Origin: Prevotella sp.
GTDB taxonomy: Bacteria; Bacteroidota; Bacteroidia; Bacteroidales; Bacteroidaceae
DNA length: 35,392 nt
Reading direction: 5' to 3'
NCBI GenBank assembly: GCA_017428925.1
Contig: JAFRPY010000116.1
Span: forward strand, 1 to 35,392
Shown here piece after piece: positions 4,578 to 26,770 of the stretch. Under the pieces are notes generated by a model. That model worked only from the letters and a program-made list of their open reading frames with translations, had not been told where the DNA came from and made no database searches. How positions within the stretch are numbered: position 1 is the first letter of the stretch; every line of letters starts with the position of its first letter. The translations under genes and the position numbers were made by a program.

Positions 4578-4588
4578 CTGTTCTCTCC

Positions 4589-8121: not shown

Positions 8122-10872
8122 TTACTTGCGTCCGGCCTGCGTTATCAGTTCCCTGACGTTATTGTTGAAGGCATCGGCAGCCAGCAGGTCTTCCAAATTG
8201 AGGTGCATGCGGTAGCGCCAATAATGGCGGGGGTTGGCTGGGATGTTCACGCGCTCGGCATTGGCATCGGGCAAACGAAGGCACTCGTCGATGGCCAGCC
8301 AATCCTGAAGCGCGAGGACGCAAAGCATGGAGGGACAGGTGAGATGACGGGAAATGATGTCGCGAGCCAGCCAGCCGGGAAGCGGATGGGGTGCCTGGTC
8401 GCCTCGATAGAGCATGGTGCTGTAGTACTCCTGCGTGCGTTGCTCGTCTTCGTCCCACCACATGCGGAGGGTGGGCATATCGTGAGAGGAGATGGTGCAG
8501 ACGCTGCGATAGGGATTGCGCGACAGATGGCCGAACTTCACCGACGGATCTTTCGGCATCGACTGGAGTTCGAGCGAGAGGATGCGCAGTTCGTTCATCA
8601 CCCAGGGCACACAGTCGGGCACCATGCCGAGGTCTTCGGCACAGACGAGCATGCGGGTGGCCTGCACCAGAAGAGGCAGTTTCTTCATGGCCTCACGATA
8701 CCAGAACTGGTTGTTGCGACGATAATAGTAGTCGTTGTAAATCTTGTTGAAGACGAACTTGTCGCTGTCGTAGAGGCTCTCGTAGATGAAATCGAGCTGG
8801 GCGGAAATGCGCGGATGGAATTTCTCGGGATTGCGATGGTCGCGCACAAAGAGCACGTCGGAAATGAGGGCATACAGGCCGTCGCGCAGGTCACTAAGTG
8901 AAGAGTGAAGAGTGGGAAGTGAAGAGTGAAGAGTGAAGATTGAAGAATCTTTGGGTTGGCTCTTCATGTTTGACTCTACGCTTTGATACCACGCCTCGAT
9001 TTTGCGCTGGGTATTGTATTCCGGCTTCATGCGATAGCGGCCGTCGTGGGTGGGCTCCAGGAACTGTTGTTTCACGTAGTCGGCATCCTCGTGGAAGATG
9101 CGTTCGAGCGTCCAGTCCATGATGAACGGCTCGAGGAATAGCTCATCCTGGAAATGAAGTCCGTAGGCTTCGATTTCCTCGCGCGTCATGGCCAATGATG
9201 GAGCAAACTGTCCGAGCAGTCCGTGGACGGCATCAACGGGGATCTCCCAGATGCGGAAGAATCCGAGCACGTGGTCGATGCGGTAGGCATCGAAGTATTT
9301 TGACATGTTCTGGAAACGGCGTACCCACCACAGGCAGTCGTCCTTAAGCATGGCCTCCCAGTTGTAGGTGGGGAATCCCCAGTTCTGTCCGTTCACCGAG
9401 AAATCATCGGGCGGAGCACCCGCCTGTCCGTTCAGGTTGAAGTAGCGCGGCTCCTGCCATACATCGCACCCGTAGCGGTTGACGCCGATGGGGATGTCGC
9501 CCTTGAGGATGACGCCATGCTGGCGGGCATACTCGTGCACCTCGCACATCTGGGAATAGAGCAGGAACTGGACGAAATAGCTGTAGGCCACCTCTTTGTA
9601 CTGCTTGGTGCGCGGCGACGAAAGCTGGGCACGGTCTTTCTCGTTCCACGAACGATGGTCGGGCCACTGGGAATAGTCGGCTGTGCCGTAGCGGTCGCGC
9701 ATAGAGCAATACTGTGCGTAGGGCACCAGCCAATGTTTTTCTTCCTCGAAAAATTTCTTGAACTTTGCGCTGGCCAACACTTTCTTGCCTTCCTGCTGGT
9801 AGAGCAGTTGTAGGTATTCGTTCTTGGCGTTGTTCACGCGCTCGTAGTCGATTTGTGGAAGTGCATTGAGTTCCTGACGAAGTGTCTCAAATTCCTCGGC
9901 CTTCTTCTTGTCGGCCAAAGCGGGCAATGACGTGAAATCGGCATACTGCGGATGAAGGGCGAAGATGCTGATGCACGAATAGGGGTAGCTGTCGGTCCAT
10001 GTGCGGGTGTTGGTGGTGTCGTTGATGGGCAACACCTGAAGCACACGCTGACGGGTGAGTGAAACCCAGTCGACCATTTTTTTCAAATCACCGAAATCGC
10101 CGACGCCAAAACTCGTCTTGCTGCGCAACGAGAAGACGGGCACCAGCGTTCCTGCTATCTTCTGGTTGTAAATGGGGAACAGGGCCTCGGGCAGTTCATA
10201 GACCACCACGTCGCCAGCCTCGAGCGGCGGCAGTTCCACATAGCGGTTGCAGCCGCCTTCCCAGATAGGCGTCACGTCGTCTTCCTCGTCGAGCACCACG
10301 AACTTGAATTCGATGGGATTCGTCTGAAGCTTCGTTGCATCCAGATTAACCACCCATTCGTTGTAGTTATGCTCGCTCATGGGAACGGCCTTACGGATTT
10401 CCCATGCGCCCAGCACCGGGTCGCTGCCGATGATGGCCAGCCGCTCTTCCTGGCGAAGCTGCGGGGCACGAACCTTCAGGCGGACCGTAGTAGTGAAATC
10501 ACGTACCGGACTTTTCACCACGGCATGCCGGGCCACGCATTCAGTGAAGGCAGAACTGTAGAGATAGCTGTCTTCGGGCATGTCGATCCAGTGGTCGTAA
10601 ATGATGTAGTTGACGCCCTTCTGACTGGCCATTTCCAGCCGATGGGCAGCCACGAGCCACTCGTGGCGGGTGGTCTGTCCGTCGCAGTCGACGCTATAAT
10701 GATAATCGATGACATCGCCCACTTTGCGGTGAGCGTTGATTTCGCACGACCAGTGCTGTCCGTCGAGAGAACTCATACGATAAGCCGAGGCCTTGCCATC
10801 GTTCCCATCGATGTTAAGTACCAACTGTTCATCGAACGAGGTGTGGTACTCTATATTAAATCTTAATATCAT
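8122..10872 (-). CDS. malQ: 4-alpha-glucanotransferase (GH77, MalQ) with two N-terminal CBM20-like modules
   Basis: A 916-residue amylomaltase that transfers alpha-1,4-glucan segments between maltodextrins, releasing glucose; expected in the cytoplasm, as no signal peptide is present. Two starch-binding CBM20-like modules lie at about 1-95 and 128-228. The GH77 barrel begins near 240 (GTLVPVFSLRSKTSFGVGDF). The catalytic triad is visible: nucleophile D533 in YRIDHVLGF, acid/base E746 in CAEDLG, and D798 in SSHDMP. About 17 residues at 643-659 (SSIFTLHSSLPTLHSSLS) are encoded by a GTGAAGA-type repeat and look like an in-frame insertion in a loop. It lies downstream of the MFS gene with its own operator and -7-like box. 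Confidence 0.95.
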   Translation of the reverse strand: MILRFNIEYHTSFDEQLVLNIDGNDGKASAYRMSSLDGQHWSCEINAHRKVGDVIDYHYSVDCDGQTTRHEWLVAAHRLEMASQKGVNYIIYDHWIDMPEDSYLYSSAFTECVARHAVVKSPVRDFTTTVRLKVRAPQLRQEERLAIIGSDPVLGAWEIRKAVPMSEHNYNEWVVNLDATKLQTNPIEFKFVVLDEEDDVTPIWEGGCNRYVELPPLEAGDVVVYELPEALFPIYNQKIAGTLVPVFSLRSKTSFGVGDFGDLKKMVDWVSLTRQRVLQVLPINDTTNTRTWTDSYPYSCISIFALHPQYADFTSLPALADKKKAEEFETLRQELNALPQIDYERVNNAKNEYLQLLYQQEGKKVLASAKFKKFFEEEKHWLVPYAQYCSMRDRYGTADYSQWPDHRSWNEKDRAQLSSPRTKQYKEVAYSYFVQFLLYSQMCEVHEYARQHGVILKGDIPIGVNRYGCDVWQEPRYFNLNGQAGAPPDDFSVNGQNWGFPTYNWEAMLKDDCLWWVRRFQNMSKYFDAYRIDHVLGFFRIWEIPVDAVHGLLGQFAPSLAMTREEIEAYGLHFQDELFLEPFIMDWTLERIFHEDADYVKQQFLEPTHDGRYRMKPEYNTQRKIEAWYQSVESNMKSQPKDSSIFTLHSSLPTLHSSLSDLRDGLYALISDVLFVRDHRNPEKFHPRISAQLDFIYESLYDSDKFVFNKIYNDYYYRRNNQFWYREAMKKLPLLVQATRMLVCAEDLGMVPDCVPWVMNELRILSLELQSMPKDPSVKFGHLSRNPYRSVCTISSHDMPTLRMWWDEDEQRTQEYYSTMLYRGDQAPHPLPGWLARDIISRHLTCPSMLCVLALQDWLAIDECLRLPDANAERVNIPANPRHYWRYRMHLNLEDLLAADAFNNNVRELITQAGRK
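8897..8946. repeat. Heptamer-type (GTGAAGA) repeat inside malQ
   Basis: On the plus strand the stretch reads AGTGAAG AGTGAAG AGTGGGA, then AGTGAAG AGTGAAG AGTGAAG ATTGAAGA: two blocks of near-identical heptamers. Such GTGAAGA runs look like intergenic dispersed repeats of Bacteroidales. Here the repeat is in frame within a catalytic gene and adds a Ser/Leu/Thr/His-rich loop. Confidence 0.7.
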
Positions 10873-10900: not shown

Positions 10901-10908
10901 CTAAATTA
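10901..10908 (-). promoter_or_regulatory. Probable -7 box of malQ (one mismatch)
   Basis: The minus strand reads TAATTTAG, one mismatch to TAnnTTTG, 28 bp before the malQ start. It lies 54 nt from the LacI-type operator core, almost the same distance as in the other operator-linked promoters here, which is the main support for the call. No -33 box is seen at the usual distance. Confidence 0.45.
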
Positions 10909-10952
10909 CGAAGAATTCGCTTGCGGTGTTCGCAAATTGTCCACTTTATGAA

Positions 10953-10986
10953 CAAATTGTCGTGCAAACGTTTGCACGACAATTTG
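10953..10986. promoter_or_regulatory. 34-bp perfect palindrome containing a LacI-family operator (malQ upstream)
   Basis: Both 17-bp arms match perfectly around 10969/10970. The core TGCAAACGTTTGCA (10963-10976) is a classic LacI/GalR-type operator with a central CG, flanked by CGAC/GTCG and AATTTG/CAAATT arms. The identical core is between lacI and susC. It sits between the MFS stop and the malQ start, upstream of malQ. It has no T-tract, so I call it an operator and not a terminator. Confidence 0.8.
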
Positions 10987-11016
10987 GGGAAACACATGGT
11001 ATTGATACAACAATTA

Positions 11017-12315
11017 TCACTTCTTTTCTTTTATCAGCCATACGCAGCAGGCACCCAAGACGAGCAGTACTCCGGCGACGATCATCATGTTCTCCTGCTG
11101 GCTGCCCACCAGATGGAGGATGGAGCCTCCGCAAAGGGCGGCCACAATCTGCGGCAGACAGATGGTACCATTGAACAGACCGAGATAGGCACCCATGTGT
11201 CCGTAGCCCTGCAGGGCATTGGTGACAAAAGTGAACGGCATGGCCAGCATGGCAGCCCATGCACAACCGATGAGCAGGAAGGGCACAATCTGCAGGTATT
11301 TATCTGGACAGAAGGGGATAAGCGCGAAGCCTATGGCACCAAGCACCAGACTAAATGCGTATGCCATCTTGGTGTTCTTGAAACGAGGCAGGATGGTGGC
11401 CCATACCACCGAGCCCATTGCCTGAATGGCATAGAGCACTCCAGTCCAGTTGCCTGCTATCTGGTAATCCTCGGTGACGGGATCAGTGGTATTCCATACC
11501 GTTGCCGAAACGGCATCCACGACGTATGTCCACATATAGAGGAAAGCCGCCCAGCAGAAGAACTGTACCAGTCCGACGCGCCAGAATGTAGAAGGAGCAT
11601 TCTTGAGTAGCGTAATCCAGTTGGCGCTCTCCTCTTTCTCGGTACTCACGGGGTTATACTGAAGGTATTCCTGCGGATTCCATTCCCTGACCTTCAGCAC
11701 GGTATAGATGACACAAAGAATCAGTATGGCCGCACCGATATAGAATGACCAAATAACACTGTCGGGAACAACACCTTCGGGTGCCACATTCTTCAATCCT
11801 ATCCAAGTGAAGAAGAACGGAAACAGGAAACCGACCACCGAGCCGGCATTACACAGGAACGACTGAATGCTGTAGGCCTTGGCCTTCTGTTTTTCGTTCA
11901 CCATATCACCCACCAACATCTTAAACGGCTGCATGGCCATGTTGATGGAAGTATCAAGCAGCATCAGCGCAAAAAGCCCGAAGATGAGTGCCGTACCCAC
12001 GCCCATACCGAACGAACCGGCATTGGGCAGCAGGCACATCACCGCAACGGCCAGGGCTGCTCCGATAAACAAATAGGGAATTCGACGGCCGAAACGCGTC
12101 CACGTCTTATCAGAAAGCGTTCCCACGATGGGCTGCACCAGAATACCCATCAGCGGGGGCAGAATCCAGAAGAAACTCAGCGAATGGGGATCGGCACCCA
12201 GTGTGCGGAATATTCGCGAGATGTTAGCACTCTGCAGCGCGTATGCAATCTGCACACCAAAGAACCCGAAACTCAGGTTCCACAACTTCCAAAAACTTAA
12301 ATTCGGTTTTTCCAT
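11017..12315 (-). CDS. MFS sugar transporter (maltose/maltodextrin type, SLC45/GPH-like)
   Basis: A polytopic inner-membrane carrier of about 432 residues with around 12 hydrophobic segments. After the first helices it has the MFS motif-A-like loop LSDKTWTRFGRRIPYL. It resembles carriers encoded with malQ and SusCD in Bacteroidetes starch loci, so import of maltose or short maltodextrins by cation symport is likely. The frame is open to 12366 with other starts at 12339 and 12366. I chose the ATG at 12315 (MEKPNLSFWKLWN) because the conserved region begins there and an A-rich leader precedes it; 12339 is also possible. It follows lacI by about 100 bp, including a GC-rich palindromic repeat, and is probably cotranscribed with it. 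Confidence 0.88.
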   Translation of the reverse strand: MEKPNLSFWKLWNLSFGFFGVQIAYALQSANISRIFRTLGADPHSLSFFWILPPLMGILVQPIVGTLSDKTWTRFGRRIPYLFIGAALAVAVMCLLPNAGSFGMGVGTALIFGLFALMLLDTSINMAMQPFKMLVGDMVNEKQKAKAYSIQSFLCNAGSVVGFLFPFFFTWIGLKNVAPEGVVPDSVIWSFYIGAAILILCVIYTVLKVREWNPQEYLQYNPVSTEKEESANWITLLKNAPSTFWRVGLVQFFCWAAFLYMWTYVVDAVSATVWNTTDPVTEDYQIAGNWTGVLYAIQAMGSVVWATILPRFKNTKMAYAFSLVLGAIGFALIPFCPDKYLQIVPFLLIGCAWAAMLAMPFTFVTNALQGYGHMGAYLGLFNGTICLPQIVAALCGGSILHLVGSQQENMMIVAGVLLVLGACCVWLIKEKK

Positions 12316-12373
12316 ATTTTTTTCGTTAATTGTTTTCATTTTTTCTGCGGTGCGACCGCAGAACACCTGACGG

Positions 12374-12414
12374 TTACCCCCATCCCTTCGGGAGGGGGGA
12401 GAGGGGGGGGGTTT
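12374..12414. repeat. GC-rich palindromic (REP-like) repeat with a G9 run between lacI and the MFS gene
   Basis: A near-palindrome CCCCCATCCC TTC GGGAGGGGG (about 12377-12399, one mismatch in the stem) is followed by GAGA-type spacing and nine consecutive G at 12403-12411. It begins just after the lacI stop. Similar CCTCCC..GGGAGG segments occur inside ispD. On the minus strand it could also slow or partly terminate transcription from lacI into the MFS gene. Confidence 0.6.
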
Positions 12415-13446
12415 TTACCTCGTCGTCCCCCTTACCACCAGGCGCGTGCGCACCACTTTTTTCTCCACCTTATCCATTGGAGTGATGCCCTCCACCTGAT
12501 TCACAAGAATGTCGACAGCCTCCTCGCCCACCATGTAGCCACGCTGTTCGACGGTGGTCAGCTGGGGTTCACAGGCAATGGCACGTTCACCATTGGTAAA
12601 CCCGCAGATGCTGATTTCTTCGGGCACCTTAAAGCCCAAGCGCTTCACGGTGTAGAGAATGCCTATGGCCGTATCGTCGTTCACGGCAAAAAAGGCGTCA
12701 GGACGGTCGGCGCGCTCCATCACCTCGGGCGTCAGCACCTCGGCGTCGTCGCGGCAGTCGCAGATAAAGCGCAGCGAGTCGTCGACCTCTAAACTGTGTT
12801 TCAAGATGGCATCCCGATAACCGTTGTAGCGGTTTTTCGAAATCTCCATCGTCATCGGCGAACCATAGTAGGCGATCCGTTTGCATCCCGTATCGATGAG
12901 ATGACTGACGGCAGTGAATGCCCCCATGTAGTCATCCACCACCACCCTATTGCTGTTCATTCCCGTGCAGATGCGGTCGTAGAACACCAGCGGGATGTTC
13001 TTGTCAAGGAGTTCCTGGAAATGGTCGTACCGCTTAGTGTCCTTAGCCTGAGAGACAATCACGCCACAGACACGGCTATGCTGGAACGACTCACAGATAC
13101 GAACCTCGCGTTCGTACTTCTCGCCACTCTGCGCCACAACTACAGAATAGCCGCGAACATTGGCCTGTTCTTCGATGCCGGCCAAAATGCTGGAGAAATA
13201 GAAATGATTGATTTGCGGAATAATGACTCCGATGAGCGTGCTGGGACGTGTCTTGCTCCTACGGAGCGACTCAGCAATGGCATTGGGATAGAAATTATGT
13301 TCGCGGGCGAAAGACTTGATGCGCTCACGCTGCTCAGCAGAGATGCGCGGAGAGTCTTTCAGCGCCCTCGACACCGTAGCCACGCTCACTCCCAGCTCGC
13401 GGGCAATATCCTTCATTGTATACGTTGATTTTGCTGTCATCATCAA
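12415..13446 (-). CDS. LacI/GalR-family transcriptional regulator of the starch locus
   Basis: A 343-residue regulator with an N-terminal helix-turn-helix (TMKDIARELGVSVATVSRAL, about 10-29) and hinge, then a periplasmic-binding-protein-like sugar-sensing core (about 65-335). It is divergent from susC, with a single operator midway, and starts the minus-strand genes lacI, MFS, malQ. The regular distance between operators and -7 boxes at four promoters, plus their missing -33 boxes, suggests it activates them in response to a maltodextrin, including its own gene; this is inference. Starts at 13446, 13443 or 13440 are all possible. Confidence 0.92.
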   Translation of the reverse strand: MMMTAKSTYTMKDIARELGVSVATVSRALKDSPRISAEQRERIKSFAREHNFYPNAIAESLRRSKTRPSTLIGVIIPQINHFYFSSILAGIEEQANVRGYSVVVAQSGEKYEREVRICESFQHSRVCGVIVSQAKDTKRYDHFQELLDKNIPLVFYDRICTGMNSNRVVVDDYMGAFTAVSHLIDTGCKRIAYYGSPMTMEISKNRYNGYRDAILKHSLEVDDSLRFICDCRDDAEVLTPEVMERADRPDAFFAVNDDTAIGILYTVKRLGFKVPEEISICGFTNGERAIACEPQLTTVEQRGYMVGEEAVDILVNQVEGITPMDKVEKKVVRTRLVVRGTTR

Positions 13447-13465
13447 GAGGTTAGCAATCCGACTG

Positions 13466-13473
13466 CAAAGTTA
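13466..13473 (-). promoter_or_regulatory. -7 box of lacI
   Basis: The minus strand reads TAACTTTG, matching TAnnTTTG, 19 bp before the lacI start. Exactly 55 nt separate it from the operator at 13529-13542. No TTTG -33 box is found at the normal spacing. Confidence 0.65.
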
Positions 13474-13528
13474 AACAAAAGTTTTATACGATGTAACGGG
13501 TACAAATTTAATAATAAAGTTTTGCAAA

Positions 13529-13542
13529 TGCAAACGTTTGCA
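13529..13542. promoter_or_regulatory. LacI-family operator shared by lacI and susC
   Basis: A perfect 14-bp palindrome TGCAAACGTTTGCA in the lacI-susC divergent region. It lies exactly 55 nt from the lacI -7 box on one side and 55 nt from the susC -7 box on the other, a symmetrical arrangement that would let one bound regulator serve both promoters. Confidence 0.85.
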
Positions 13543-13597
13543 CACACAAATCTATTGATTTATGTCAATTGTTAGTACAACTTTACATAAATAAAAC

Positions 13598-13605
13598 TAA
13601 ATTTG
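13598..13605 (+). promoter_or_regulatory. -7 box of the susC operon
   Basis: TAAATTTG matches TAnnTTTG and lies 51 bp before the susC start. The -33 TTTG is absent at 19-21 nt, consistent with a promoter that needs an activator. Confidence 0.65.
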
Positions 13606-13656
13606 CAACGAAAATAACTAAAAACATATAAACGCTAACTAAAAAAAAATCGAACA

Positions 13657-16600
13657 ATGATGAAGCAGGTAAAATTTACTATGCCGATTAGGATGCTTGC
13701 ATTGATATGCGGGCTGATCCTCTCAGCAAGTGCCTTTGCACAGCAAATCACTGTCAACGGCCATGTTAAAGATGCTACCGGCGAAGCCGTCATTGGTGCC
13801 ACCGTGCAAGTCGTAGGACAAACGGGCGGAGCCATTACCGACATCGACGGAAACTTCTCAATCAAAGCCAACCAGGGTGACCAGATCAAGGTTACCTTCG
13901 TAGGTTATCAGGACGCCATCGTGGCCGCCGCTCCCAATGTGGTGGTAACGATGCAGGACGATGCCCAGACCCTGGAAAACGTGGTGGTTATCGGTTACGG
14001 CCGCGCCAAGAAAAGCGACCTGACGGGTTCTGTGACGGCCATCAAGCCCGACGACAAGAACAAAGGTCTCCAGACAAGTGCCCAAGACATGTTGCAGGGT
14101 AAGGTGGCTGGTGTGAACATCACCAACAGCGGCGGTCAGCCCGGTGCTGGTGCTACCATCCGCATTCGTGGCGGCTCATCTCTGAACGCCTCCAACGATC
14201 CGTTGATTGTTATCGACGGTTTGACGATGGACAGCTACGGCAAGGAAGGTACGTCTAACCCCCTGTCTCTTGTGAACCCGAACGACATTGAATCGTTCAC
14301 CGTATTGAAGGATGCTTCTGCAACGGCCATCTATGGTAGCCGTGCTTCTAATGGTGTTATCATCATCACCACGAAGAAGGGACGTGCAGGCTCTGCTCCA
14401 TCGGTGACCTATAATGGCAATGTTTCGGTAGGTATTGTCAGCAAAACACTTGACGTGATGAACACCGGTGAGTATCTTCCCTATATCAAGAACCTCGTGA
14501 TGAATTCCCGAGGATATTCAGAGGAAGAGTATCTGGCCAGCAGCGAGTATGCCAACTTAGGCTATTTCGACGAGCAAGGCAACCATCTCTTTGCTGATAC
14601 CGACTGGCAGAAAGAGATTTACCGCACGGCTGTCTCAACAGACCATAACATCACCGTTACGGGAGGCTTGAAGAACATGCCCTACCGTGTAAGTTTTGGT
14701 TTCACCGACCAGAACGGTATCGTAAAGAAGAGCGACTACCAGCGCTATACGGCCAGCATCAATGTGTCGCCCACATTGCTGGACAAGCACCTGACGTTCA
14801 ACATCAATGCCAAGGGAATGTACTCTAAGACCGACTACAACAACGGAGGTGCAATCTACAACGCCCTAAGCATGGACCCCACCAAGCCCATCTACGCTGT
14901 CACCAGCGAAATGAAGAAGGGTTACGGCGGTTATTGGCAGTGGCCCAGCACTGCTACATGGTCTGACACCGAATGGAAAGCCAACAAGAACTCATTGGCT
15001 CCCCAGAACCCTGTGGCAGCACTGGAACTGTATGACTGTGTAGGTAAGACCAAGTCATTGGTCGGAAACATCGAGGTGGTCTACAAACTGCACGGATTTG
15101 AGGACCTGCAGTTCCACGTCAATGCAGGTATGGACCTGACAAGCGGTAAGTCGGATACAAGCCAAAGCCCCTATAGTTTCGACAACTACTATTATGGCTT
15201 CTATTCCAACAGCAAGACCGACACCTACAACCTCTCGCTGAACGCCTATGCCGACTATATGAAAGAAATCGGCATCCATAACTTCAGCATCATGGCCGGT
15301 TACGAATGGCAGCACTTCCACAAGAAAAACAGCTATCACTCCTATGGCCTCTATCCCTCTACCAACACCGAGAGCCCGGGGGCATACTATAATGAATCTG
15401 CCAACCCAGACTACAAGACCGAGAACTATCTCGTTTCGTTCTTCGGACGTCTCAACTACACACTATTGGAGCGTTACATGCTCACAGCCACCCTGCGTGC
15501 CGACGGTTCTTCACGCTTCAACTGGCTGAAGACTGCCGACAACCAGCAGTGGGGTCTGTTCCCCTCTGCCGCATTCGCATGGAAGATCAACGAAGAAGCT
15601 TTCCTGAAGAATGCCACATGGCTTTCCGACTTCAAACTTCGTCTCGGCTGGGGTATCACCGGTCAGCAGGAAGGTATAGGTGACTATACATACATCCCGA
15701 CCTATACGCCAAACATACAGGGAGCATACTACGACCTGTTCGGCGACGGCACTACTACTCGTCCTGATGGATTCTATCAGGCTCTGACATGGGAGAAGAC
15801 CACTACTTGGAACGCTGGTATCGACTTTGGCATCCTGAACGACCGTCTGACCTTCAATCTGGATGTCTACCACCGCAAGACCAAGGACCTGATCAACGAG
15901 GTGGTACTTCCCGTGGGAACGAACTTCTCCAACAAGATCAACAAGAACATCGGTTCATTGCACAACACGGGTATTGAGTTTGCAGCCAACTGGCGTGCCA
16001 TCCAGACCAAGGACCTCTCTTGGCAGTTGGGTTACAACGTAACTTGGAACAAGAACGAGATTGACGAACTGGTTGACGGTACGAACCCCGACTACATGAT
16101 TCTTCACGGTGGAGCAGCCTACGGTGTCGGCGGCAATGTCAAGTCCTACCACGTAGGCTCGCCTGTTGAGGCCTTCTATGTTTACCAGCAGGTATATGAC
16201 CAAAACGGTCAGCCCATCCTCGGGCAGTTTGTAGATCGCAATGGCGACGGCACCGTCACTGCAGCCGACCGTTACTTCTACAAGAAGTCGAACCCCGATG
16301 TGACTATGGGATTCACCTCGAAGGTGCTGTGGAAGAACTGGGACTTCAGCTTCTCAATGCGTGCTAACATCAACAACTACGTTTACAATGGCGTAGAGGC
16401 TGGCGGCATCTCCAACGTGTCCATCACCGGTCTCTATACAGGTAATGCCTGGCACAATGTCTATAAAGACGCTGCAGAGAAAGAATGGACAGCTACCAGC
16501 GAGAAGACAACCCTCTCTGACTACTTCATCCAGAACGCTTCGTTCCTAAAGATGGACAACATCACCTTAGGATACTCTTTCGACAAGCTGTTCAACACCA

Positions 16601-16749
16601 AAATCAACGGTCGTGTATTCCTTACTGCTCAAAACGTGTTCACCATCACGAAGTATAAGGGTATCGACCCCGAAATCGACGGTGGCTACGACGGCAGCAT
16701 CTATCCGCGCCCGTTTATGGGAATCTTCGGTCTGAGTCTGAATTTCTAA
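13657..16749 (+). CDS. susC: SusC/RagA-family TonB-dependent outer-membrane receptor
   Basis: A 1030-residue outer-membrane channel for importing glycan oligomers with its SusD lipoprotein. It has a signal peptide ending ...ASAFA before QQ (cleavage about 28/29), a carboxypeptidase-regulatory-like domain (about 31-100), a plug domain starting near 108 (VVVIGYGRAKKSDLTGSV), and the SusC hallmark VLKDASATAIYGSRASNGVI. The remainder is beta-barrel, ending in the aromatic residue of GLSLNF as outer-membrane barrels do. It is the first gene of susC-D-E-F, 21 bp before susD. Starch-derived substrate is inferred from the neighbouring amylase, malQ and SusE/F-like genes. ATG at 13660 is an alternative start. 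Confidence 0.95.
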   Translation: MMKQVKFTMPIRMLALICGLILSASAFAQQITVNGHVKDATGEAVIGATVQVVGQTGGAITDIDGNFSIKANQGDQIKVTFVGYQDAIVAAAPNVVVTMQDDAQTLENVVVIGYGRAKKSDLTGSVTAIKPDDKNKGLQTSAQDMLQGKVAGVNITNSGGQPGAGATIRIRGGSSLNASNDPLIVIDGLTMDSYGKEGTSNPLSLVNPNDIESFTVLKDASATAIYGSRASNGVIIITTKKGRAGSAPSVTYNGNVSVGIVSKTLDVMNTGEYLPYIKNLVMNSRGYSEEEYLASSEYANLGYFDEQGNHLFADTDWQKEIYRTAVSTDHNITVTGGLKNMPYRVSFGFTDQNGIVKKSDYQRYTASINVSPTLLDKHLTFNINAKGMYSKTDYNNGGAIYNALSMDPTKPIYAVTSEMKKGYGGYWQWPSTATWSDTEWKANKNSLAPQNPVAALELYDCVGKTKSLVGNIEVVYKLHGFEDLQFHVNAGMDLTSGKSDTSQSPYSFDNYYYGFYSNSKTDTYNLSLNAYADYMKEIGIHNFSIMAGYEWQHFHKKNSYHSYGLYPSTNTESPGAYYNESANPDYKTENYLVSFFGRLNYTLLERYMLTATLRADGSSRFNWLKTADNQQWGLFPSAAFAWKINEEAFLKNATWLSDFKLRLGWGITGQQEGIGDYTYIPTYTPNIQGAYYDLFGDGTTTRPDGFYQALTWEKTTTWNAGIDFGILNDRLTFNLDVYHRKTKDLINEVVLPVGTNFSNKINKNIGSLHNTGIEFAANWRAIQTKDLSWQLGYNVTWNKNEIDELVDGTNPDYMILHGGAAYGVGGNVKSYHVGSPVEAFYVYQQVYDQNGQPILGQFVDRNGDGTVTAADRYFYKKSNPDVTMGFTSKVLWKNWDFSFSMRANINNYVYNGVEAGGISNVSITGLYTGNAWHNVYKDAAEKEWTATSEKTTLSDYFIQNASFLKMDNITLGYSFDKLFNTKINGRVFLTAQNVFTITKYKGIDPEIDGGYDGSIYPRPFMGIFGLSLNF

Positions 16750-16770
16750 ACGATAAAAAAGGATACAATT

Positions 16771-18414
16771 ATGAAACTGAAAATATTTAAGCAAATCATT
16801 CCTGCTGTAGCCCTGGCCTGCTCGTTAGGCTTCACGGCCTGTGTCAACGATTTGCATGTGGAGAACATCAACCCACAGCAGAACCCTAACTATACCGAGG
16901 AAGGACTTTTAAATAAGATTTACAGTAGCTTTGTACTCACTGGCCAACAAGGTCCCGCAGGAAAGGGGGACATCCAAGGCGTTGACGAGGGATTCTCTGA
17001 CTACTACCGCAATGTGTGGGAACTGCAGGAGTTCACCACCGATGAGGCCAGCTGGATTTGGATTGGCGACCCCGGTATTCCCGAACTGTTGCACAACACC
17101 TACGATGCCAGCAACTCATGTTCCTCTGGTCTTTACTATCGTCTATTTTTCACCATCACGCTCTGTAACTACTATCTTGACCAGTTCCCTGCCGATGGTA
17201 GTGACGAGAACACCAAGCGCCGCGCCGAGGTACGCTTCATCAGGGCCTATACCTATTATCAGGTGATGGACATCTATGGCAGCGCCACCTTTACCGAGCA
17301 TGTTGTGGCCGATCCGGGCGAGCGTTACACACGCACCCAGTACTTCGACTTCATCGAAAAAGAATTGAAGGAGATTGAGAACGAACTGGGAGATGCAGGT
17401 TCAATGGTGTATGGACGTGTCGACAAGGTTGCTGCCCAGTTGATGCTGGCCCGCCTCTATCTGAATGCCGAGGTTTACACTGGCACTCCCAAATGGAACG
17501 AGGCAAAGGAATATGCCACTAAAGTCATCAACAACGGATACTACCACCTGAACACCAAAGGTGCCGTCAATCCTACAACGGGCGAGAAATACTCAGCCTA
17601 CCAGATGCTGTTCCTTGCCGACAACGACACCAATGGTGCCCAGTATGAGGACATTTTCCCCATCATCCACGACGGTGTGAACACTCAGAGCTATGGTGGT
17701 ATGCACTACCTCATTCTCTCTTCTTACGCCAAGCCTAGCGAGAGCGATATGGATATCGTCATTCCGTCAGGCACCACAGCAGCCTGGGGTAAATGTATGC
17801 GTGTAAGAGGTAAGCTTATTGACAACTTCTTTGGAGTAAGCACTGTCCTTCCCGATGAGCCTTTCTGCCAGGAGGACATCACAAAAATTGCCGGCGACGA
17901 CCGCGCCCTGTTCTACACAGGCAAGGGCTACTCGAAGTACATCGCCGACGAGACTGATGCAACTCACGGCTTTGCCTGCTCTAAGTTCCGTAATGTCCGT
18001 TCTGACGGAGGTGCAACCAGCATTGTTGACCAGTTTGTAGATACCGATCTACCGCTGATGCGTATCGCTGAAGCCTATCTGACCTATGCCGAGGCAGAAA
18101 CCCGTCTGAATGGTGCAACGGCCGATGCAGCCAGCAAGATTAACGAATTGCGCAAGCGTGCCAACGCTGCCACACAGAACAGCTACACCCTCGACGATAT
18201 CCGCACTGAGTGGTCGAAAGAGTTCTGGTGCGAAGGACGTCGCCGCATGGATCTTATCCGCTTCAACAGTTATGGCGGACAGTCTGCTTATACTTGGGAG
18301 TACATGGGTGGAGCAGTCGATGGTTCACAGTTCCCATCCTTCCGTAACATTTTTGCCCTGCCTTTGAACGACCTGACCAACAATCCGAACCTCGTTCAGA
18401 ATGAAGGTTACTAA
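16771..18414 (+). CDS. susD: SusD/RagB-family glycan-binding lipoprotein
   Basis: A 547-residue surface lipoprotein that caps the SusC channel and binds the substrate. The signal peptide ends in a lipobox, GFTAC, with the acylated Cys at residue 24. The helical SusD scaffold is visible in CNYYLDQFPADG and RAEVRFIRAYTYYQVMDIYG, and the typical C-terminal EFWCEGRRRMDLIRFNSYGG is present. Length is normal for the family. It is 21 bp downstream of susC and 44 bp upstream of the SusE-like gene. Confidence 0.95.
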   Translation: MKLKIFKQIIPAVALACSLGFTACVNDLHVENINPQQNPNYTEEGLLNKIYSSFVLTGQQGPAGKGDIQGVDEGFSDYYRNVWELQEFTTDEASWIWIGDPGIPELLHNTYDASNSCSSGLYYRLFFTITLCNYYLDQFPADGSDENTKRRAEVRFIRAYTYYQVMDIYGSATFTEHVVADPGERYTRTQYFDFIEKELKEIENELGDAGSMVYGRVDKVAAQLMLARLYLNAEVYTGTPKWNEAKEYATKVINNGYYHLNTKGAVNPTTGEKYSAYQMLFLADNDTNGAQYEDIFPIIHDGVNTQSYGGMHYLILSSYAKPSESDMDIVIPSGTTAAWGKCMRVRGKLIDNFFGVSTVLPDEPFCQEDITKIAGDDRALFYTGKGYSKYIADETDATHGFACSKFRNVRSDGGATSIVDQFVDTDLPLMRIAEAYLTYAEAETRLNGATADAASKINELRKRANAATQNSYTLDDIRTEWSKEFWCEGRRRMDLIRFNSYGGQSAYTWEYMGGAVDGSQFPSFRNIFALPLNDLTNNPNLVQNEGY

Positions 18415-18458
18415 AAAGGAGAATTTGAAAATAGGTTTTAAAGTTAAAAGATAAAAAA

Positions 18459-19607
18459 ATGAAAACAATATATAAAAGCCTGCTCTTCACGATGATGGCA
18501 GTCGTGCCTTTCCTTACCTCATGTAAGGACGACAACGACAGCAATCCCACGTTAAGCATTCCGTCGAGTTTCGTGCTGAACACACCGGAGATGGCAGCCA
18601 ACAACGTGTATGACCTGCCATACGGAACGGTTAATCTGACGGCTTCGCAACCCAACTATGGCGGTTGGCCCGCTGCCGTGACCTATGCCGTTCAGGTATC
18701 CCTTGATGGAAACGAGTGGACCGAGTTGCCCACCACTTACACCAATCCACGCATAAGCGTCGATGGTTCAGAAATCAACGACGTTGTGCTGCCCCTCTAT
18801 CGTGCTGCCAACAATGATGAGGATCCCGAAATCGGACTTCCCGTCTACCTGCGCTCCCGCGCATTCCTGGGCGATACGGGAAGCGACTTTGCAGAGGTTT
18901 ATTCCAACAGTGTCTCTATCAAAGTATATGCATGGGAGGCTCCACAGGAACTCACCCTGCCCACCAACATCTATGTTTGCGGTGCCAGCATCGCCGATGC
19001 CTGGAGCACATGGAAACCCGTTCCTCTGATTTGGACGAAAGAAGGTCAGTTCTACACGATGATCTACAACAATGCCGACGGATTCAAGTGGGGTAACAAA
19101 CCCAACGACTGGTTCGGCTACGATATGATCGACGAATTCGACAATCAGGTAGACGGACTTGAAATCAGTTCCGACGGCGATGGCAACATCGTCTTCAACA
19201 AGGCCGGCTGGTACGTGCTGAAGTTTGTCGCCAAAATTGATGGCAAGAAGATTAAGTACACCCTCACCGTAGCCCCAGGAAAGGCCTGCGCTATCGGTGC
19301 TGCCGTAGACAATGGCAGCTGGAGTGGCGTAGAAATGACACCTCCTGCCGACAAGGATGGTTACTGGACGTTTAGCGACTTCACCGGCACAGGCGAAATG
19401 CGTGCATACATTGTTGTTCCCGGTGTAGACTGGTGGCAGACCGAGTTCACCATTCTCAATGGCAACGGTGATTTGGTATGGCGTGATGCTGACCACAACA
19501 GCGACTCTAACTGGAAGGACGACGTGGGTGAGGAATATTCCGTCAGCGTAGGTCCTGGAAGTACTATCAAGGTGAACTTCAACCGCAACACCGGTGTTGT
19601 GGAGTAA
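18459..19607 (+). CDS. susE: SusE-like starch-binding outer-membrane lipoprotein
   Basis: A 382-residue lipoprotein with lipobox FLTSC (Cys 22) followed by KDDND, the charged stretch typical of surface-exported Bacteroidetes lipoproteins. The N-terminal region (about 30-155) matches the SusE-type immunoglobulin-like domain (PSSFVLNTPEMAAN). Two beta-rich modules follow, beginning near IYVCGASIADAWSTWKPVPL and near ACAIGAAVDNGSWSGVEM, with the aromatic-rich look of Sus carbohydrate-binding modules. Third gene of the operon. It should hold starch at the surface rather than cut it; the exact ligand is inferred. Confidence 0.88.
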   Translation: MKTIYKSLLFTMMAVVPFLTSCKDDNDSNPTLSIPSSFVLNTPEMAANNVYDLPYGTVNLTASQPNYGGWPAAVTYAVQVSLDGNEWTELPTTYTNPRISVDGSEINDVVLPLYRAANNDEDPEIGLPVYLRSRAFLGDTGSDFAEVYSNSVSIKVYAWEAPQELTLPTNIYVCGASIADAWSTWKPVPLIWTKEGQFYTMIYNNADGFKWGNKPNDWFGYDMIDEFDNQVDGLEISSDGDGNIVFNKAGWYVLKFVAKIDGKKIKYTLTVAPGKACAIGAAVDNGSWSGVEMTPPADKDGYWTFSDFTGTGEMRAYIVVPGVDWWQTEFTILNGNGDLVWRDADHNSDSNWKDDVGEEYSVSVGPGSTIKVNFNRNTGVVE

Positions 19608-19625
19608 TAACAAAAACAATAAAAG

Positions 19626-21461
19626 ATGAATCGTATGAAGAAACATATTTTATTCGGTGGCATGCTGCTGTTAGCAGCAATGTTCACCGGTTGTACGGAA
19701 GACTTCAAGGATTGGGCAGACCCCATCTTCAATCCTGAGCCCACTGCGATCACCATTCCCGGCGTGACGGCCTCTGCCGTTGCCCAGAATGTTGATCTGG
19801 CCAAGGCCGACGAAGCTGTCAGATTGATTTCCGTCAGCACATCCTCTGCCCCCGAGGGAACAACCTTCGACAAAATGCGCATCGTCGTAACTCCCGAGGG
19901 AGTGGATGGTGCTGAACCAAAGACCATTCAGGCCATCTCCACCACCGACGGCACTTTCAGCAAGGAAACGCTGCAGGAGATGATTCTTGAATATTTCGGT
20001 CGCAGACCTGACGTTCGCACGTTCGACACCCAAGTATATCTGGACGGTGTCTATCAGGGACAAGCCGCTTTCATCGATGCGGGAAGTGTCCAGCTGACGC
20101 TCATCCCTGAGGCTCCGAAAATCTCTCCGAACTATTACATCGTCGGCGGTAGCCTCGACTGGGCTGCTTCTGCTGCATCCAAGGAGCAGAAATTCAGACA
20201 CAGCGACCTGGATGTCTACGAAGATCCTGTATTCAGCATCATCATCGATGCAGCCGACGGTGACACATGGTTCGCCATTGGCGACGACGAAGGTTGCGAC
20301 GCCGTAGGAAACGGCGACTGGTCGAAACTGATGGGTATCGTAGGCGGCGATAACAAAGCCACCGAGGGTTCTCTCGACTACCGCTACAACATGGGAGCCG
20401 ACAACTCGTTCTGCGTTCCTGCCGGTGCCAAGAAAATTCGCGTCACCATCGACATGATGGAACAGACCTTCAAGGTGGAAGCTGTGAATATTGCAGACAG
20501 TTATTATCTGGTTGGCGGCAACGGTTCGTGGAGCAGCGATAAGAGCCAGAAGTTCACTCATAGCGACAAAGACGTATTCGATGATCCCGTATTCACCTAT
20601 GTGCTGACGGGTGGCAGCGAATTGTGGTTTGCCTTCGGCGATGCCGATGCTCTGGATGCTATTGATAACGGCGACTGGAACCAGCTATTCGGAACAAAGG
20701 GTGCCAGCGAAGACCTGGGCGGATCGTTCGACCGCCGCTACAACCTTGGAGGCGACCACTCGTTCCATGTTGACGGCTCGGCTAAGTTCTATCGTTTCAC
20801 CATCAATGTCCTCGACATGACCTACACCATCACCCCGCTCAACTTCGAGCCGTTCATCTACTTCATCGGAGCCACCGACGGATGGTCACAGGCTGAGCAG
20901 AAACTCGCCCTGACCGACGACAGCGGCATCTATACGGGTTACATCTATTGTGCCGACCCGAACGGATGGGGCAACGAGTTCAAGTTCCAGCGCGTGGCTG
21001 GTTCATGGGATGACGAAATCAACTTCGGCACCTTCACCGGAGGTGTGAGCGGCGACTTCGTAGAAGGCGGTGGCGGCAACATCAAGGCCACAGCAGGCGA
21101 AGGCATCTATTACATCGAGGCCGACATGGCCACCGGCACGTTGAAGGGCACCCGCATCACGAACATGAACCTGGTGGGCAACTTCAACGGATGGAATCCT
21201 GCCGACGATGCTCAGCAGATGACTTGGGATGCCGAAAACTACTGCTATGTTATTACCAATGCAGGCGTGACAGCCGATGGATGGAAGTTCACGGCCAACA
21301 ACGACTGGGGCATCAATCTCGGTGGTAACGACAGCGTGGAACCCTCGATGGTAATCGACGACCTGGCTGCCAACGGAAAGAACCTTGGTGCCGTAGGCTC
21401 GACCATCAAACTCTATCCGACGCGCAAGAATTCGGACAAAATCTACTGTACGGTGGAATAA
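19626..21461 (+). CDS. susF: SusF-like multi-module starch-binding outer-membrane lipoprotein
   Basis: A 611-residue lipoprotein with lipobox MFTGC (Cys 23). After an N-terminal domain (about 40-160) come four beta-rich modules at about 168-288, 291-406, 410-512 and 513-611. The first two are close copies (KFRHSDLDVYEDPVF versus KFTHSDKDVFDDPVF, both followed by WFAxGD and NGDW), showing internal duplication. The last begins NLVGNFNGWNP, a common starch-binding start. No catalytic motif is seen, so the role is glycan binding at the surface. The true start may be the ATG at 19635. A strong terminator follows, closing the susC-F operon. Confidence 0.88.
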   Translation: MNRMKKHILFGGMLLLAAMFTGCTEDFKDWADPIFNPEPTAITIPGVTASAVAQNVDLAKADEAVRLISVSTSSAPEGTTFDKMRIVVTPEGVDGAEPKTIQAISTTDGTFSKETLQEMILEYFGRRPDVRTFDTQVYLDGVYQGQAAFIDAGSVQLTLIPEAPKISPNYYIVGGSLDWAASAASKEQKFRHSDLDVYEDPVFSIIIDAADGDTWFAIGDDEGCDAVGNGDWSKLMGIVGGDNKATEGSLDYRYNMGADNSFCVPAGAKKIRVTIDMMEQTFKVEAVNIADSYYLVGGNGSWSSDKSQKFTHSDKDVFDDPVFTYVLTGGSELWFAFGDADALDAIDNGDWNQLFGTKGASEDLGGSFDRRYNLGGDHSFHVDGSAKFYRFTINVLDMTYTITPLNFEPFIYFIGATDGWSQAEQKLALTDDSGIYTGYIYCADPNGWGNEFKFQRVAGSWDDEINFGTFTGGVSGDFVEGGGGNIKATAGEGIYYIEADMATGTLKGTRITNMNLVGNFNGWNPADDAQQMTWDAENYCYVITNAGVTADGWKFTANNDWGINLGGNDSVEPSMVIDDLAANGKNLGAVGSTIKLYPTRKNSDKIYCTVE

Positions 21462-21480
21462 TCCGAGCACATCAATTATA

Positions 21481-21521
21481 ATAAGGTGGACTTCCTCACG
21501 GAGGCCCACCTTATTTTTTTT
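21481..21521 (+). terminator. Rho-independent terminator of the susC-F operon
   Basis: A 9-bp stem ATAAGGTGG / CCACCTTAT, extended inside by CTTCC/GGAGG around the loop TCAC, is followed by a run of eight T. It starts 19 bp after the susF stop. Confidence 0.92.
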
Positions 21522-21625
21522 GTCAAAGTCGTAGCCGTTGGCACCAGCAGGCCCAGCCGCAACCCCCTCCTTCCTGCTCATGTAATATGTACTTTTGTAC
21601 TGAAAAATCAGCATTTCCGAAGAGT

Positions 21626-21734
21626 TTAGACTAAACTAAAAAGTAATTTAGACTAAATTACAAAGTAAATTAGACTAAATTGAAAAGTAATTTAGACTAA
21701 ATTGCTAAGTAAATTAGACTAAATTACTTTTTCG
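21626..21734. repeat. Tandem array with 22-bp period made of alternating 11-mers (second array)
   Basis: The 11-mer TTAGACTAAAT starts at 21626 (one mismatch), 21648, 21670, 21692 and 21714. Between copies lies a second 11-mer of type TGAAAAGTAAT (TAAAAAGTAAT, TACAAAGTAAA, TGAAAAGTAAT, TGCTAAGTAAA). Five units of 22 bp lie between the susF terminator and the amylase promoter. The sequence differs from the 7568-7754 array but the design, 11+11 with period 22, is the same. It is neither coding (22 is not a multiple of 3) nor CRISPR (no spacers). Confidence 0.85.
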
Positions 21735-21854
21735 ATGTTGAGGATTTATCAAACATTTGCACTGTAGGGAATTGGAATGGGAAAGGAGAATTATGGGAGG
21801 CTGAAGCCGGGAGAGCGTCAGCTGAACCAACAGTTCAGGCGTTTCGAGGGAAGA

Positions 21855-21868
21855 TGCAAACGATTGCG
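21855..21868. promoter_or_regulatory. LacI-family operator of the amylase/GH53 operon
   Basis: TGCAAACGATTGCG differs from the perfect operator TGCAAACGTTTGCA at two positions and keeps the central CG. It lies exactly 55 nt before the amylase -7 box, the same distance as at susC and lacI. Confidence 0.75.
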
Positions 21869-21923
21869 CACGACAAGTTCGTAAAAGTCAGCCAGTTATA
21901 TGACAGGAAATTCAAATATTTGT

Positions 21924-21931
21924 TATCTTTG
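21924..21931 (+). promoter_or_regulatory. -7 box of the amylase operon
   Basis: TATCTTTG matches TAnnTTTG, 28 bp before the amylase start. No TTTG -33 box is seen at 19-21 nt, as at the other operator-linked promoters. Confidence 0.65.
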
Positions 21932-21959: not shown

Positions 21960-23972
21960 ATGAAGAAACTGCTGATATTTCTACTCGCAATGTTGCTCTG
22001 CATGAGCACCTCACAGGAAACAATGGCTGCCGAAGGATGGCCTGCCAACTACGACGGCGTGATGCTTCAGGGATTCTATTGGGATTCCTTCACCGACACC
22101 CGCTGGGCCACTCTTGAATCACAGGCCGACGAACTTGCCGCTTCGTTTTCACTCATTTGGATTCCACAAAGCGCAAAGGCAAAAAGCAGCCCGTCGATGG
22201 GCTACGACCCCCTGTATTGGTTTTCAGACTATAACAGCAGCTTTGGCAACAAGTCGCAGCTGGTGTCTATGATCAAGACCTTCAAGAGCAAAGGTCTGGG
22301 AACCATTGCCGACATTGTGGTCAACCATCGCGGCAACGTGAGCAACTGGGTGGATTTCCCCAGGGAAACCTACAACGGCGTAACTTACCAGCTGCAATCC
22401 ACCGACATCGTTTCTGACGACGACGGAGGGGCAACCCTCACATGGGCAACCAAAAATGGATATAGCCTGAGTGCCAATGCCGAGGGCAACAGCGAGACGT
22501 ATGGCGGAAGTTGCGAAGGCTGGGACGGAATGCGCGACCTGGACCACAGCAGCAAAAATGTGCAGGACAACGTGAAGGCCTATCTGAAGATGCTGCTTTC
22601 CGACGAGTTTGGCTACGTGGGGTTCCGCTACGACATGGCAAAAGGATTCCCTGCCAAATATTTCGCCGAATATAACTACACCACAAATCCCGCATACTCG
22701 GTTGGTGAATTCTGGGATGGCAATGCTGCCTATTGCAAGAAATGGCTGAATGCCACAAAGCAAGACGGACGGATTCAGAGTGCGGTGTTCGACTTTCCAT
22801 TCCGCTACACCGTGCGCGATGCCATCAACAAGAGCAACTGGACGAATCTGGGCAATTCAAGTGTAATGTCGGATGCCAATTATCGCCAATATGCCGTTAC
22901 ATTCGTGGAAAATCACGACACTGAGAAACGCTCAAATGCGGCACAGGATCCCATCAAGAAAGACACGCTGGCTGCCAACGCCTTCCTGCTTGCCATGCCT
23001 GGAACACCCTGCGTTTTCCTCAAGCACTGGCAGGCATACAAGTCGGAGATTGCCGCGATGATAGCTGCCAGAAAAATTGCCGGCGTCACCAACACCAGCA
23101 ATTTCACCAATCAGAGAAGCACGTCGAGCTGCTATGTCAATCTTGTCAACGACAAACTATTAGTAGTGGTTGGAAGTCTGGCCGGCAGTTACCCAGCCGG
23201 TTCCGACTATACGGAAATCCTGTCGGGCTATCACTACAGATACTATCTGACCAAATCGGCAGAAACAGCATGGGCCGACAAAGCATCTGGACAATATATC
23301 ATGCCGCTGAAAGTAAAGCTCACGGCAGTGAGTGCGACCAGCGGCGCCCAGTTGGTCTATACACTCGACGGAACCACCCCGACGGCTTCAAGTACCAAAG
23401 TGAATAGCGGGACCACCATCGACATCACCGGTGCTTGCACGCTGACCATCGGTTTGCTCAAGAACGGGACTGTATCGGGCATCATTACCCGAGTTTTCAC
23501 CGAAAAAGAGGCCGACCCCGTGGTTTCACCCACCTACGTCGACGGCAAGGTGTTTGCCTACTTTGAAAAACCGTCAAACTGGGGCAGCAATATCAACGTT
23601 TGGGTATGGCAGAAAAACAAGGGGGGCGAAGACTACCTTGGAGTTTCATGGCCTGGAGTAAATGCCACGAGACTTGGCGTAACCCAAAACGGCAACGAAC
23701 TCTGGCAATGGATCAGTAGCAGCACCGTTGTACCCGACTACATCATCTTCAACGATGGCAGCGGCAACCAGACCGCAGACCTCACTTTCACCAATGGGGG
23801 CTATTATACAAAAGACGGGCTACAGTCTGTTGTTAGCGGCATCCAGGATGTTTATGGCGACCGCAGCCAAATATCCACCGACAACCGCTACTACAACCTG
23901 AACGGCCAGCAGGTGGAACCCACCCGTCCGGGAATCTATATCCGAAATGGTAAGAAATACATCAAAAAATGA
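21960..23972 (+). CDS. Secreted GH13 alpha-amylase with C-terminal starch-binding module
   Basis: A 670-residue endo-acting alpha-amylase hydrolysing internal alpha-1,4 links of starch. It has an N-terminal signal peptide ending near ETMAA (about residue 24). The GH13 conserved regions are DIVVNH (118-123), GFRYDMAKG with nucleophile D225, VGEFWDG with acid/base E250, and ENHD with D320. After the catalytic domain, about 535-620 resembles a CBM26-type starch-binding module (YFEKPSNWGSNINVWVWQ). The last 27 residues form the tail YYNLNGQQV...PGIYIRNGKKYIKK, shared in style with two other proteins in this window. Its stop overlaps the next start (ATGA), so it is coupled to the first GH53 gene. 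Confidence 0.94.
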   Translation: MKKLLIFLLAMLLCMSTSQETMAAEGWPANYDGVMLQGFYWDSFTDTRWATLESQADELAASFSLIWIPQSAKAKSSPSMGYDPLYWFSDYNSSFGNKSQLVSMIKTFKSKGLGTIADIVVNHRGNVSNWVDFPRETYNGVTYQLQSTDIVSDDDGGATLTWATKNGYSLSANAEGNSETYGGSCEGWDGMRDLDHSSKNVQDNVKAYLKMLLSDEFGYVGFRYDMAKGFPAKYFAEYNYTTNPAYSVGEFWDGNAAYCKKWLNATKQDGRIQSAVFDFPFRYTVRDAINKSNWTNLGNSSVMSDANYRQYAVTFVENHDTEKRSNAAQDPIKKDTLAANAFLLAMPGTPCVFLKHWQAYKSEIAAMIAARKIAGVTNTSNFTNQRSTSSCYVNLVNDKLLVVVGSLAGSYPAGSDYTEILSGYHYRYYLTKSAETAWADKASGQYIMPLKVKLTAVSATSGAQLVYTLDGTTPTASSTKVNSGTTIDITGACTLTIGLLKNGTVSGIITRVFTEKEADPVVSPTYVDGKVFAYFEKPSNWGSNINVWVWQKNKGGEDYLGVSWPGVNATRLGVTQNGNELWQWISSSTVVPDYIIFNDGSGNQTADLTFTNGGYYTKDGLQSVVSGIQDVYGDRSQISTDNRYYNLNGQQVEPTRPGIYIRNGKKYIKK

Positions 23973-25075: not shown

Positions 25076-25078
25076 TAT

Positions 25079-25109
25079 TTTGTGTTTTCAATAAAACTGT
25101 TTATCTTTG
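25079..25109 (+). promoter_or_regulatory. Complete -33/-7 promoter of the second GH53 gene
   Basis: TTTG at 25079-25082, a 19-nt spacer and TATCTTTG at 25102-25109 form a full Bacteroidetes promoter. It overlaps the open frame upstream of 25144, which shows that the gene starts at 25144. No LacI-type operator lies 55 nt upstream. Confidence 0.8.
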
Positions 25110-25143
25110 CACCCCAAGAAACAACCTATTAAAACAGATAATC

Positions 25144-26741: not shown

Positions 26742-26770
26742 AGCGTGTAGAATTCTACATCCTACACGCT
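26742..26770. terminator. Hairpin between convergent GH53 and heptapeptide genes
   Basis: AGCGTGTAG (26742-26750) pairs perfectly with CTACACGCT (26762-26770). The loop region can instead form the 14-bp palindrome TGTAGAATTCTACA (26746-26759). Its place between convergent genes, touching the stop codon of the minus-strand gene, suggests a bidirectional terminator, though the T-tract is weak. Confidence 0.6.

Follow-up and report, generated by a model that had tools for sequence, protein, structure and literature searches.

Fixed operator spacing upstream of -7 boxes suggests that a LacI-family protein activates the starch regulon of a Prevotella

The model activator of starch genes is SusR of Bacteroides thetaiotaomicron, a maltose-sensing protein that activates susA and susBCDEFG (PMC3878776, PMC11633381). 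In some Bacteroides starch loci a LacI-type gene takes its place: those of B. fragilis and B. uniformis combine LacI-type regulators with MFS transporter and GH65 genes and are noted to lack a SusR homolog (PMC11633381). Here we analyzed 35,392 nucleotides (nt) of DNA from Prevotella sp. (assembly GCA_017428925.1, contig JAFRPY010000116.1, positions 1 to 35,392), hereafter the window, which holds the starch locus of a Prevotella of rumen type and, beside susC, a LacI-family gene. Promoter geometry suggested that the product of this gene likely activates a starch/maltose regulon from fixed upstream sites. The regulon probably includes lacI and the adjoining MFS transporter gene, susCDEF, malQ, the alpha-amylase gene and an unlinked GH97 gene. 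Starch genes would then be under an activator, as with SusR; unlike SusR, which is a membrane protein with a periplasmic sensor, the window protein is LacI-type by domain layout (no transmembrane prediction was made). In the maltose/sus cluster of Flavobacterium IR1, lacI23 lies beside susC-susD-susE, a maltose transporter gene and a GH13 gene, and insertion into lacI abolished a colour response that is also lost in susC and transporter mutants (PMC9131120). That phenotype would be as expected for an activator, and the cluster resembles our locus in placing a lacI among sus/maltose genes.

The best solved-structure matches of the window LacI were those of CcpA (1rzr, E=1.5e-42, and 1zvv). CcpA, itself of the LacI family, activates where cre boxes lie upstream of -35, an effect that depends on the helix face (PMC3463425), and its dimers use such upstream activating sites at ackA, pta and ilvB of Bacillus subtilis, as proposed here. 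Unlike the window regulator, CcpA is global and represses far more genes than it activates (PMC3463425), and the window LacI fell well short of the ccpA equivalog model (TIGR01481, 160.6 bits against a cut-off of 442.35). KdgR, UxaR, UxmR and UxuR of Bacteroides are also LacI-family proteins, with sugar regulons drawn from comparative genomics; they serve uronate pathways, and the word "activator" occurred 0 times in that text (PMC3878776). Among the matches listed in open-access literature on LacI sugar-locus regulators of Bacteroidota, Prevotella and Flavobacterium and on LacI/CcpA activation, which leaves subscription journals mostly outside, neither a LacI-family protein that activates starch genes in Bacteroidota nor such a spacing was found. 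The sigma factor sigma-ABfr has the promoter consensus -7 TAnnTTTG and -33 TTTG (PMC7366714). The operators and -7 boxes of the window were as follows.

10963..10976, unstranded: operator A (TGCAAACGTTTGCA), with the malQ -7 box 54 nt downstream
10901..10908, minus strand: malQ -7 box TAATTTAG, an imperfect TAnnTTTG at 54 nt; TTG at 24 nt only, none at 19-20 nt
13529..13542, unstranded: operator B (TGCAAACGTTTGCA), common to lacI and susC
13598..13605, plus strand: susC -7 box TAAATTTG, 55 nt from operator B, without TTG at 19-20 nt
13466..13473, minus strand: -7 box TAACTTTG of lacI promoter P2, 55 nt from operator B, without a -33 element
21855..21868, unstranded: operator C (TGCAAACGATTGCG), with the amylase -7 box 55 nt downstream
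21924..21931, plus strand: amylase -7 box TATCTTTG at 55 nt, without TTG at 19-20 nt

These positions confirmed the first-pass annotation, which had placed three operators 54-55 nt from four -7 boxes. The predicted sites were palindromes with a central CG, as in LacI/GalR-type operators; the linked boxes matched the sigma-ABfr -7 consensus, except for the imperfect malQ box, and none of the four had the -33 TTTG. The exact core GCAAWCGWTTGC had only 5 copies in the 3.56-Mb draft genome (85% complete), three of them in the window, and a -7 box stood 54 or 55 nt away in 5/5, that of malQ imperfect. At site C29:810, outside the window, TATCTTTG followed at 54 nt and then a GH97 gene (PF14508, 235.8 bits). 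At C57:56220 (L175 1501), also outside, operator CGCAAACGTTTGCG was followed by TATCTTTG at 54 nt, ahead of another susC-like gene. All five sites agree with the earlier proposal that a single activator serves the entire regulon, activation being predicted from geometry. Spacing can in this way name regulon members from DNA alone, as it did by pointing to the GH97 gene on another contig. A degenerate operator pattern allowing 3 mismatches occurred at chance level (14 matches, 12.6 expected in shuffles). The susC-like gene at C57:56220 adjoins a pectinesterase gene, and either the starch regulator or another LacI protein is a candidate binder there.

The first-pass annotation had named beforehand the comparison of spacing across related genomes as the one that could overturn it, and that comparison did not overturn it. 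A LacI ortholog, defined by at least 50% identity, was present in 35 of the 201 genomes of the family sample; the next among the matches listed were at most 39% identical. We compared the loci of 34 of them (the 35th is the window) and of 80 named relatives, the best 80 of 102, the closest being uncultured Prevotella/Prevotellaceae assemblies; a few were copies of the same contigs, and the top three LacI proteins were 89-92% identical to that of the window. Operator sides were counted in the window and L060-L173, L001-L059 standing outside the count; sides with less than 160 nt of flank were dropped and sides identical over 100 nt merged. From these 115 sources, 105 gave sides and 104 had a box at 53-57 nt. 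TAnnTTTG was found at 53-57 nt in 225 of 359 distinct sides (121 at 54, 77 at 55 and 22 at 56 nt; 8 further boxes lay at 18 nt), against 0.38 per position elsewhere, and six scrambled palindromes gave 0 matches at 53-57 nt on their 52 sides in total. The 59 operators of the family-sample loci (at most 2 mismatches) had 37 boxes at 54, 28 at 55 and 5 at 56 nt, with 1-2 at every other position. An operator-blind scan for CG-centred palindromes upstream of TAnnTTTG (114 ortholog loci, 429 boxes) returned 93, 52 and 18 at 54, 55 and 56 nt. In the family sample, each of the 11 genera with a LacI ortholog had a box at 53-58 nt once the operators of L091 and L092, which carry 3 mismatches, were counted (boxes at 53 and 55 nt, respectively). 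The sites were fixed and helix-phased upstream, as in class I activation, with the transcription start predicted from the -7 box.

An exact palindrome followed after 40-70 nt by TANNTTTG was matched 29 times, in 11 of the 201 genomes; 25 gaps were within 53-58 nt and 4 were at 42-43 nt. Two of the four lie on a side that faces a YceG/MltG-family gene, malQ opposite keeping 54 nt, and a helical variant at 42-43 nt was rejected for the g2 genomes on this ground. In the remaining two, another box stands at 54 nt, 11 nt farther from the operator. By gene faced, a box at 53-57 nt was present in 91/102 sides for susC, 95/102 for lacI, 19/20 for amylase, 13/34 for malQ and 3/5 for GH53, compared with 4/96 sides matching no locus gene. 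Four of the 11 susC misses were operator-like matches 347-349 nt off, inside lacI. Among the 21 malQ misses, 11 had a degenerate box of the TAATTTAG or TAATTTTA type at 54-55 nt, 8 were operator-like matches at 19-49 nt from where malQ is estimated to begin, and 2 (75-79 nt) were boxless. The length of the spacer was kept and its sequence was not: the median pairwise identity of 54-nt spacers was 41% for susC, 33% for lacI, 31% for malQ and 35% for amylase. Clustering the 225 spacers at below 60% identity left 104, with gaps of 54 (45), 55 (44), 56 (11), 57 (3) and 53 nt (1). Since the operator-to-box distance is fixed in 104 diverged spacers, activation is predicted.

Control -7 boxes were taken before other genes of the same loci; 333 were found, and removing 199 with an operator-like site upstream left 134. 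TTG at 19-20 nt accompanied 10/225 operator-linked and 45/134 control boxes (Fisher p=2.4e-13), and TTTG at that distance 7/225 and 27/134 (Fisher p=2.2e-7). After clustering, TTG was found in 4/104 operator-linked compared with 34/104 control boxes (p=4.6e-8), showing that operator-linked promoters, like those of class I, have no good -35-type element. Operator-linked spacers were also rich in A or T at two places, -39 to -37 of the -7 box (95, 99 and 93%) and -49 to -47 (80, 86 and 85%). In susC these are the following.

13549..13551, plus strand: A/T triplet AAT, 7th-9th nt past operator B; proposed alpha-CTD (C-terminal domain of the RNA polymerase alpha subunit) contact adjoining the regulator
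13559..13561, plus strand: A/T triplet TTT, 17th-19th nt past operator B; UP-element-like, frequent in controls too

The full triplet at -39..-37 was present in 91/104 operator-linked and 73/104 control boxes (p=0.004), including 23/34 controls with a -33 TTG; being so frequent in controls, it is a general promoter feature that is stronger at operator-linked boxes. The triplet at -49..-47, beside the operator, occurred in 66/104 versus 43/104 (p=0.002), and in 12/34 controls with a -33 TTG. The intervening stretch, used as a control, did not differ (29 versus 23). We propose that the alpha-CTD may dock on these triplets, which lie one helical turn and two turns beyond the regulator.

In the class I mode of the activator CRP, sites are at -61.5 or -71.5. 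A LacI dimer bound to the palindrome TGCAAACGTTTGCA would be centred about 72 nt upstream of the start predicted by the -7 box and would occupy the helix face from which class I activators work. The dimer would then recruit the polymerase, most probably through the alpha-CTD, for which the two A/T triplets past the operator could serve as contact points, and recruitment would replace the absent -33 contact at otherwise weak, -7-only promoters. The resemblance to class I CRP lies in the predicted site near -72, the missing -35-type contact and the A/T-rich tracts between; unlike CRP, the regulator is of another protein family and the polymerase carries a -7/-33 sigma factor. The effector would be of the maltose type, with binding dependent on this ligand.

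The lacI side of operator B held one more promoter.

13503..13510, minus strand: -7 box TAAATTTG of lacI promoter P1, 18 nt from operator B

P1 is canonical (TTTG-N20-TAAATTTG), and its -33 TTTG at 13531-13534 is an arm of operator B, so that the operator lies over the core of P1 and not of P2. The gap-18 box recurred in 7 further loci (LacI 73-92% identical), of which L098, L099 and L101 have clearly diverged flanks. L136 had a lacI-side box at 17 nt, and L061, L100, L102, L104 and L108 (LacI 72-75%) had only the distant box or boxes elsewhere. In L241, from another family of the same order (LacI 52%), the box was at 54 nt before susC and at 18 nt toward lacI. The earlier statement that operator promoters have no normal -33 stood for the operator-linked set as a whole and missed P1. 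In the window and close relatives the same bound dimer would cover the -33 of P1, and binding may shift lacI transcription from basal P1 to activated P2. Because predicted binding at operator B would cover P1, the shared operator is not simply "autoactivating": the autoactivation claimed at first is retained through P2, at 55 nt, and has to be qualified for P1, which binding would block in the window and 7 close loci.

Tentatively, and with the balance somewhat against it, one dimer might act as a two-way switch that shuts P1 at 18 nt and opens the promoters at 54-55 nt (lacI P2, susC, malQ, amylase and GH97), P1 supplying basal sensor and importer until maltose drives binding. A distance of 17-18 nt would then mark a repressor and one of 54-55 nt an activator, and the sign of regulators in these bacteria could be read from sequence. 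Promoter geometry offers a simple activator-versus-repressor rule in a phylum with few mapped promoters.

An ordinary LacI repressor, shutting these promoters through operator looping or by blocking a nearby activator and released by maltose, appears improbable, although most family members repress and operators sit over the -33 at lacI P1 and at five paralogs. Blocking has a precedent at lev, where CcpA bound upstream represses by blocking LevR (PMC3463425). However, looping requires no fixed distance for each -7 box and predicts no loss of -33 elements. The 104 operator-to-box spacers had no second conserved motif: 6-mers with at least two G/C reached at most 12/104 spacers, and Crp-like TGTGA-N6-TCACA was found in 0/104. 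The GH97 promoter, on another contig, has a single site at the same 54 nt.

Whether the geometry belongs to LacI proteins at large was examined outside the ortholog group (L179-L200 and L202-L207 of the phylum-wide LacI list were left out). A palindrome scan of 26 class-wide LacI loci gave boxes at 48-62 nt only for the window (55), L211 (62) and L216 (51 and 57). The operator-blind scan of 45 non-ortholog loci (20 family paralogs and 25 of the 26 class-wide loci, without the window's L228, with some overlap) covered 74 boxes and found no palindrome at 53-56 nt; two were at 57 nt (L216 and L256) and five at 17-18 nt. Taking every TAnnTTTG instead of gene-linked boxes returned the same five and four more at 44 nt. 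All five (L252, L257, L264, L266 and L267, from the window's genus) were CGTAAACGTTTGCG, each with its box just upstream of the paralog's own start by coordinates and the operator over the -33. In these loci a 54-55 nt spacing did not emerge as a general rule for all LacI proteins. Since they lack palindromes at the ortholog peak, the activator-like geometry is confined to this LacI clade within the loci scanned, paralogs with operators far from their own gene escaping the scan. Newly described here are the A/T triplets, the second lacI promoter, which uses the operator as its -33 TTTG, and the five paralogs at 17-18 nt.

Binding of the operators by another LacI-family paralog rather than by the neighbouring gene's product seems even less probable. 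The genome has two further LacI-type genes at E <= 1e-12, the susC-like gene that follows the CGCAAACGTTTGCG site has a pectinesterase gene as its neighbour, and in genome G018 operator and box were present and a LacI ortholog was not detected. Against this, a LacI ortholog occurred in 10/11 genomes with exact operator plus box compared with 25/190 others (p=7.5e-8), lacI-facing sides had the box in 95/102, and the 45 other loci gave 0 palindromes at 53-56 nt. Spacing merely inherited along with its promoters, without function, is very improbable: all loci are related, orthologous regions, and those with names come almost entirely from Prevotella/Prevotellaceae, but spacers have diverged to 31-41% median identity while staying 53-57 nt long, and different genes and both sides of a shared operator obey the spacing, which is rare on sides that lack a locus gene (4/96).

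Several points weigh against activation from fixed sites. Repression is the usual role of LacI-family proteins, and repressor geometry occurs within the family, at five paralogs at 17-18 nt, and even at an operator of the starch regulator itself, at P1. The strict spacing rule is obeyed by only 13/34 malQ sides, and seven distant-homolog loci (39-44% identity) had no TAnnTTTG 53-57 nt from the operator-like sites listed; both limit the fixed spacing first claimed. The counts were drawn from related genomes and are not independent. Control boxes were picked by position, and non-promoters may be among them; the -39..-37 triplet was common in them and the -49..-47 triplet was present in 43/104. 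Polar effects of the Flavobacterium lacI insertion are possible according to its authors (PMC9131120). Among the distant-homolog loci, L248 had one degenerate TATTTTAG at 53 nt. In L247 (11420) the susC-side operator and TAGCTTTG were 65 nt apart, roughly an extra helical turn.

The genes of the locus comprise malQ, the MFS transporter gene and lacI on the minus strand and, on the plus strand, susC followed by susD-, susE- and susF-like genes, the alpha-amylase gene and two GH53 genes.

8122..10872, minus strand: malQ, 4-alpha-glucanotransferase of GH77 with CBM20 (PF02446, 486.7 bits)
11017..12366, minus strand: MFS sugar transporter, on the same strand as lacI and 48 nt after it
12415..13446, minus strand: LacI-family regulator (PF00356, 58.8 bits, cut-off 27)
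13657..16749, plus strand: susC, TonB-linked outer membrane protein (TIGR04056, 817 bits, cut-off 368)
16771..18414, plus strand: susD-like (PF07980, PF14322; score under the NCBIfam SusD cut-off)
18459..19607, plus strand: susE-like (SusF_SusE and SusE domains)
19626..21461, plus strand: susF-like (SusF_N domain)
21960..23972, plus strand: alpha-amylase of GH13 with CBM26, by domain search

The regulator has the LacI/GalR layout, with a PF00356 helix-turn-helix domain at residues 10-55 and a periplasmic-binding-protein-like sensor domain (PF13377, 94 bits, cut-off 26.5) extending to residue 342 of 343, and lacI is likely the first gene of a lacI-MFS operon. Canonical TTTG-N19/20-TAnnTTTG promoters were found at 25079 (plus strand, second GH53), 30002 (plus strand, DJ-1) and 27308 (minus strand). 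The assignment of such promoters to unregulated neighbours held for the second GH53 and DJ-1 genes; 27308, which precedes a 163-aa frame at 26770-27261, is tentatively taken as that of the "heptapeptide gene". The promoter at 25079 may serve the second GH53 gene.

The two GH53 genes (23969-26736) lie behind the alpha-amylase gene within the starch locus, and the class relative L244 likewise has a GH53 gene in the vicinity of lacI, GH65 and a susC-like gene. Inspection by eye showed some five imperfect repeats of TTTAGACTAAATT at 21620-21730, in the stretch from susF to the amylase operator. The palindrome TGTAAACATTTACA at 148-161, near the window start, is operator-like with 3 mismatches. At 636-7027, a YhcG/DUF1016 nuclease gene lies between ResIII-type restriction and DNA methylase genes.

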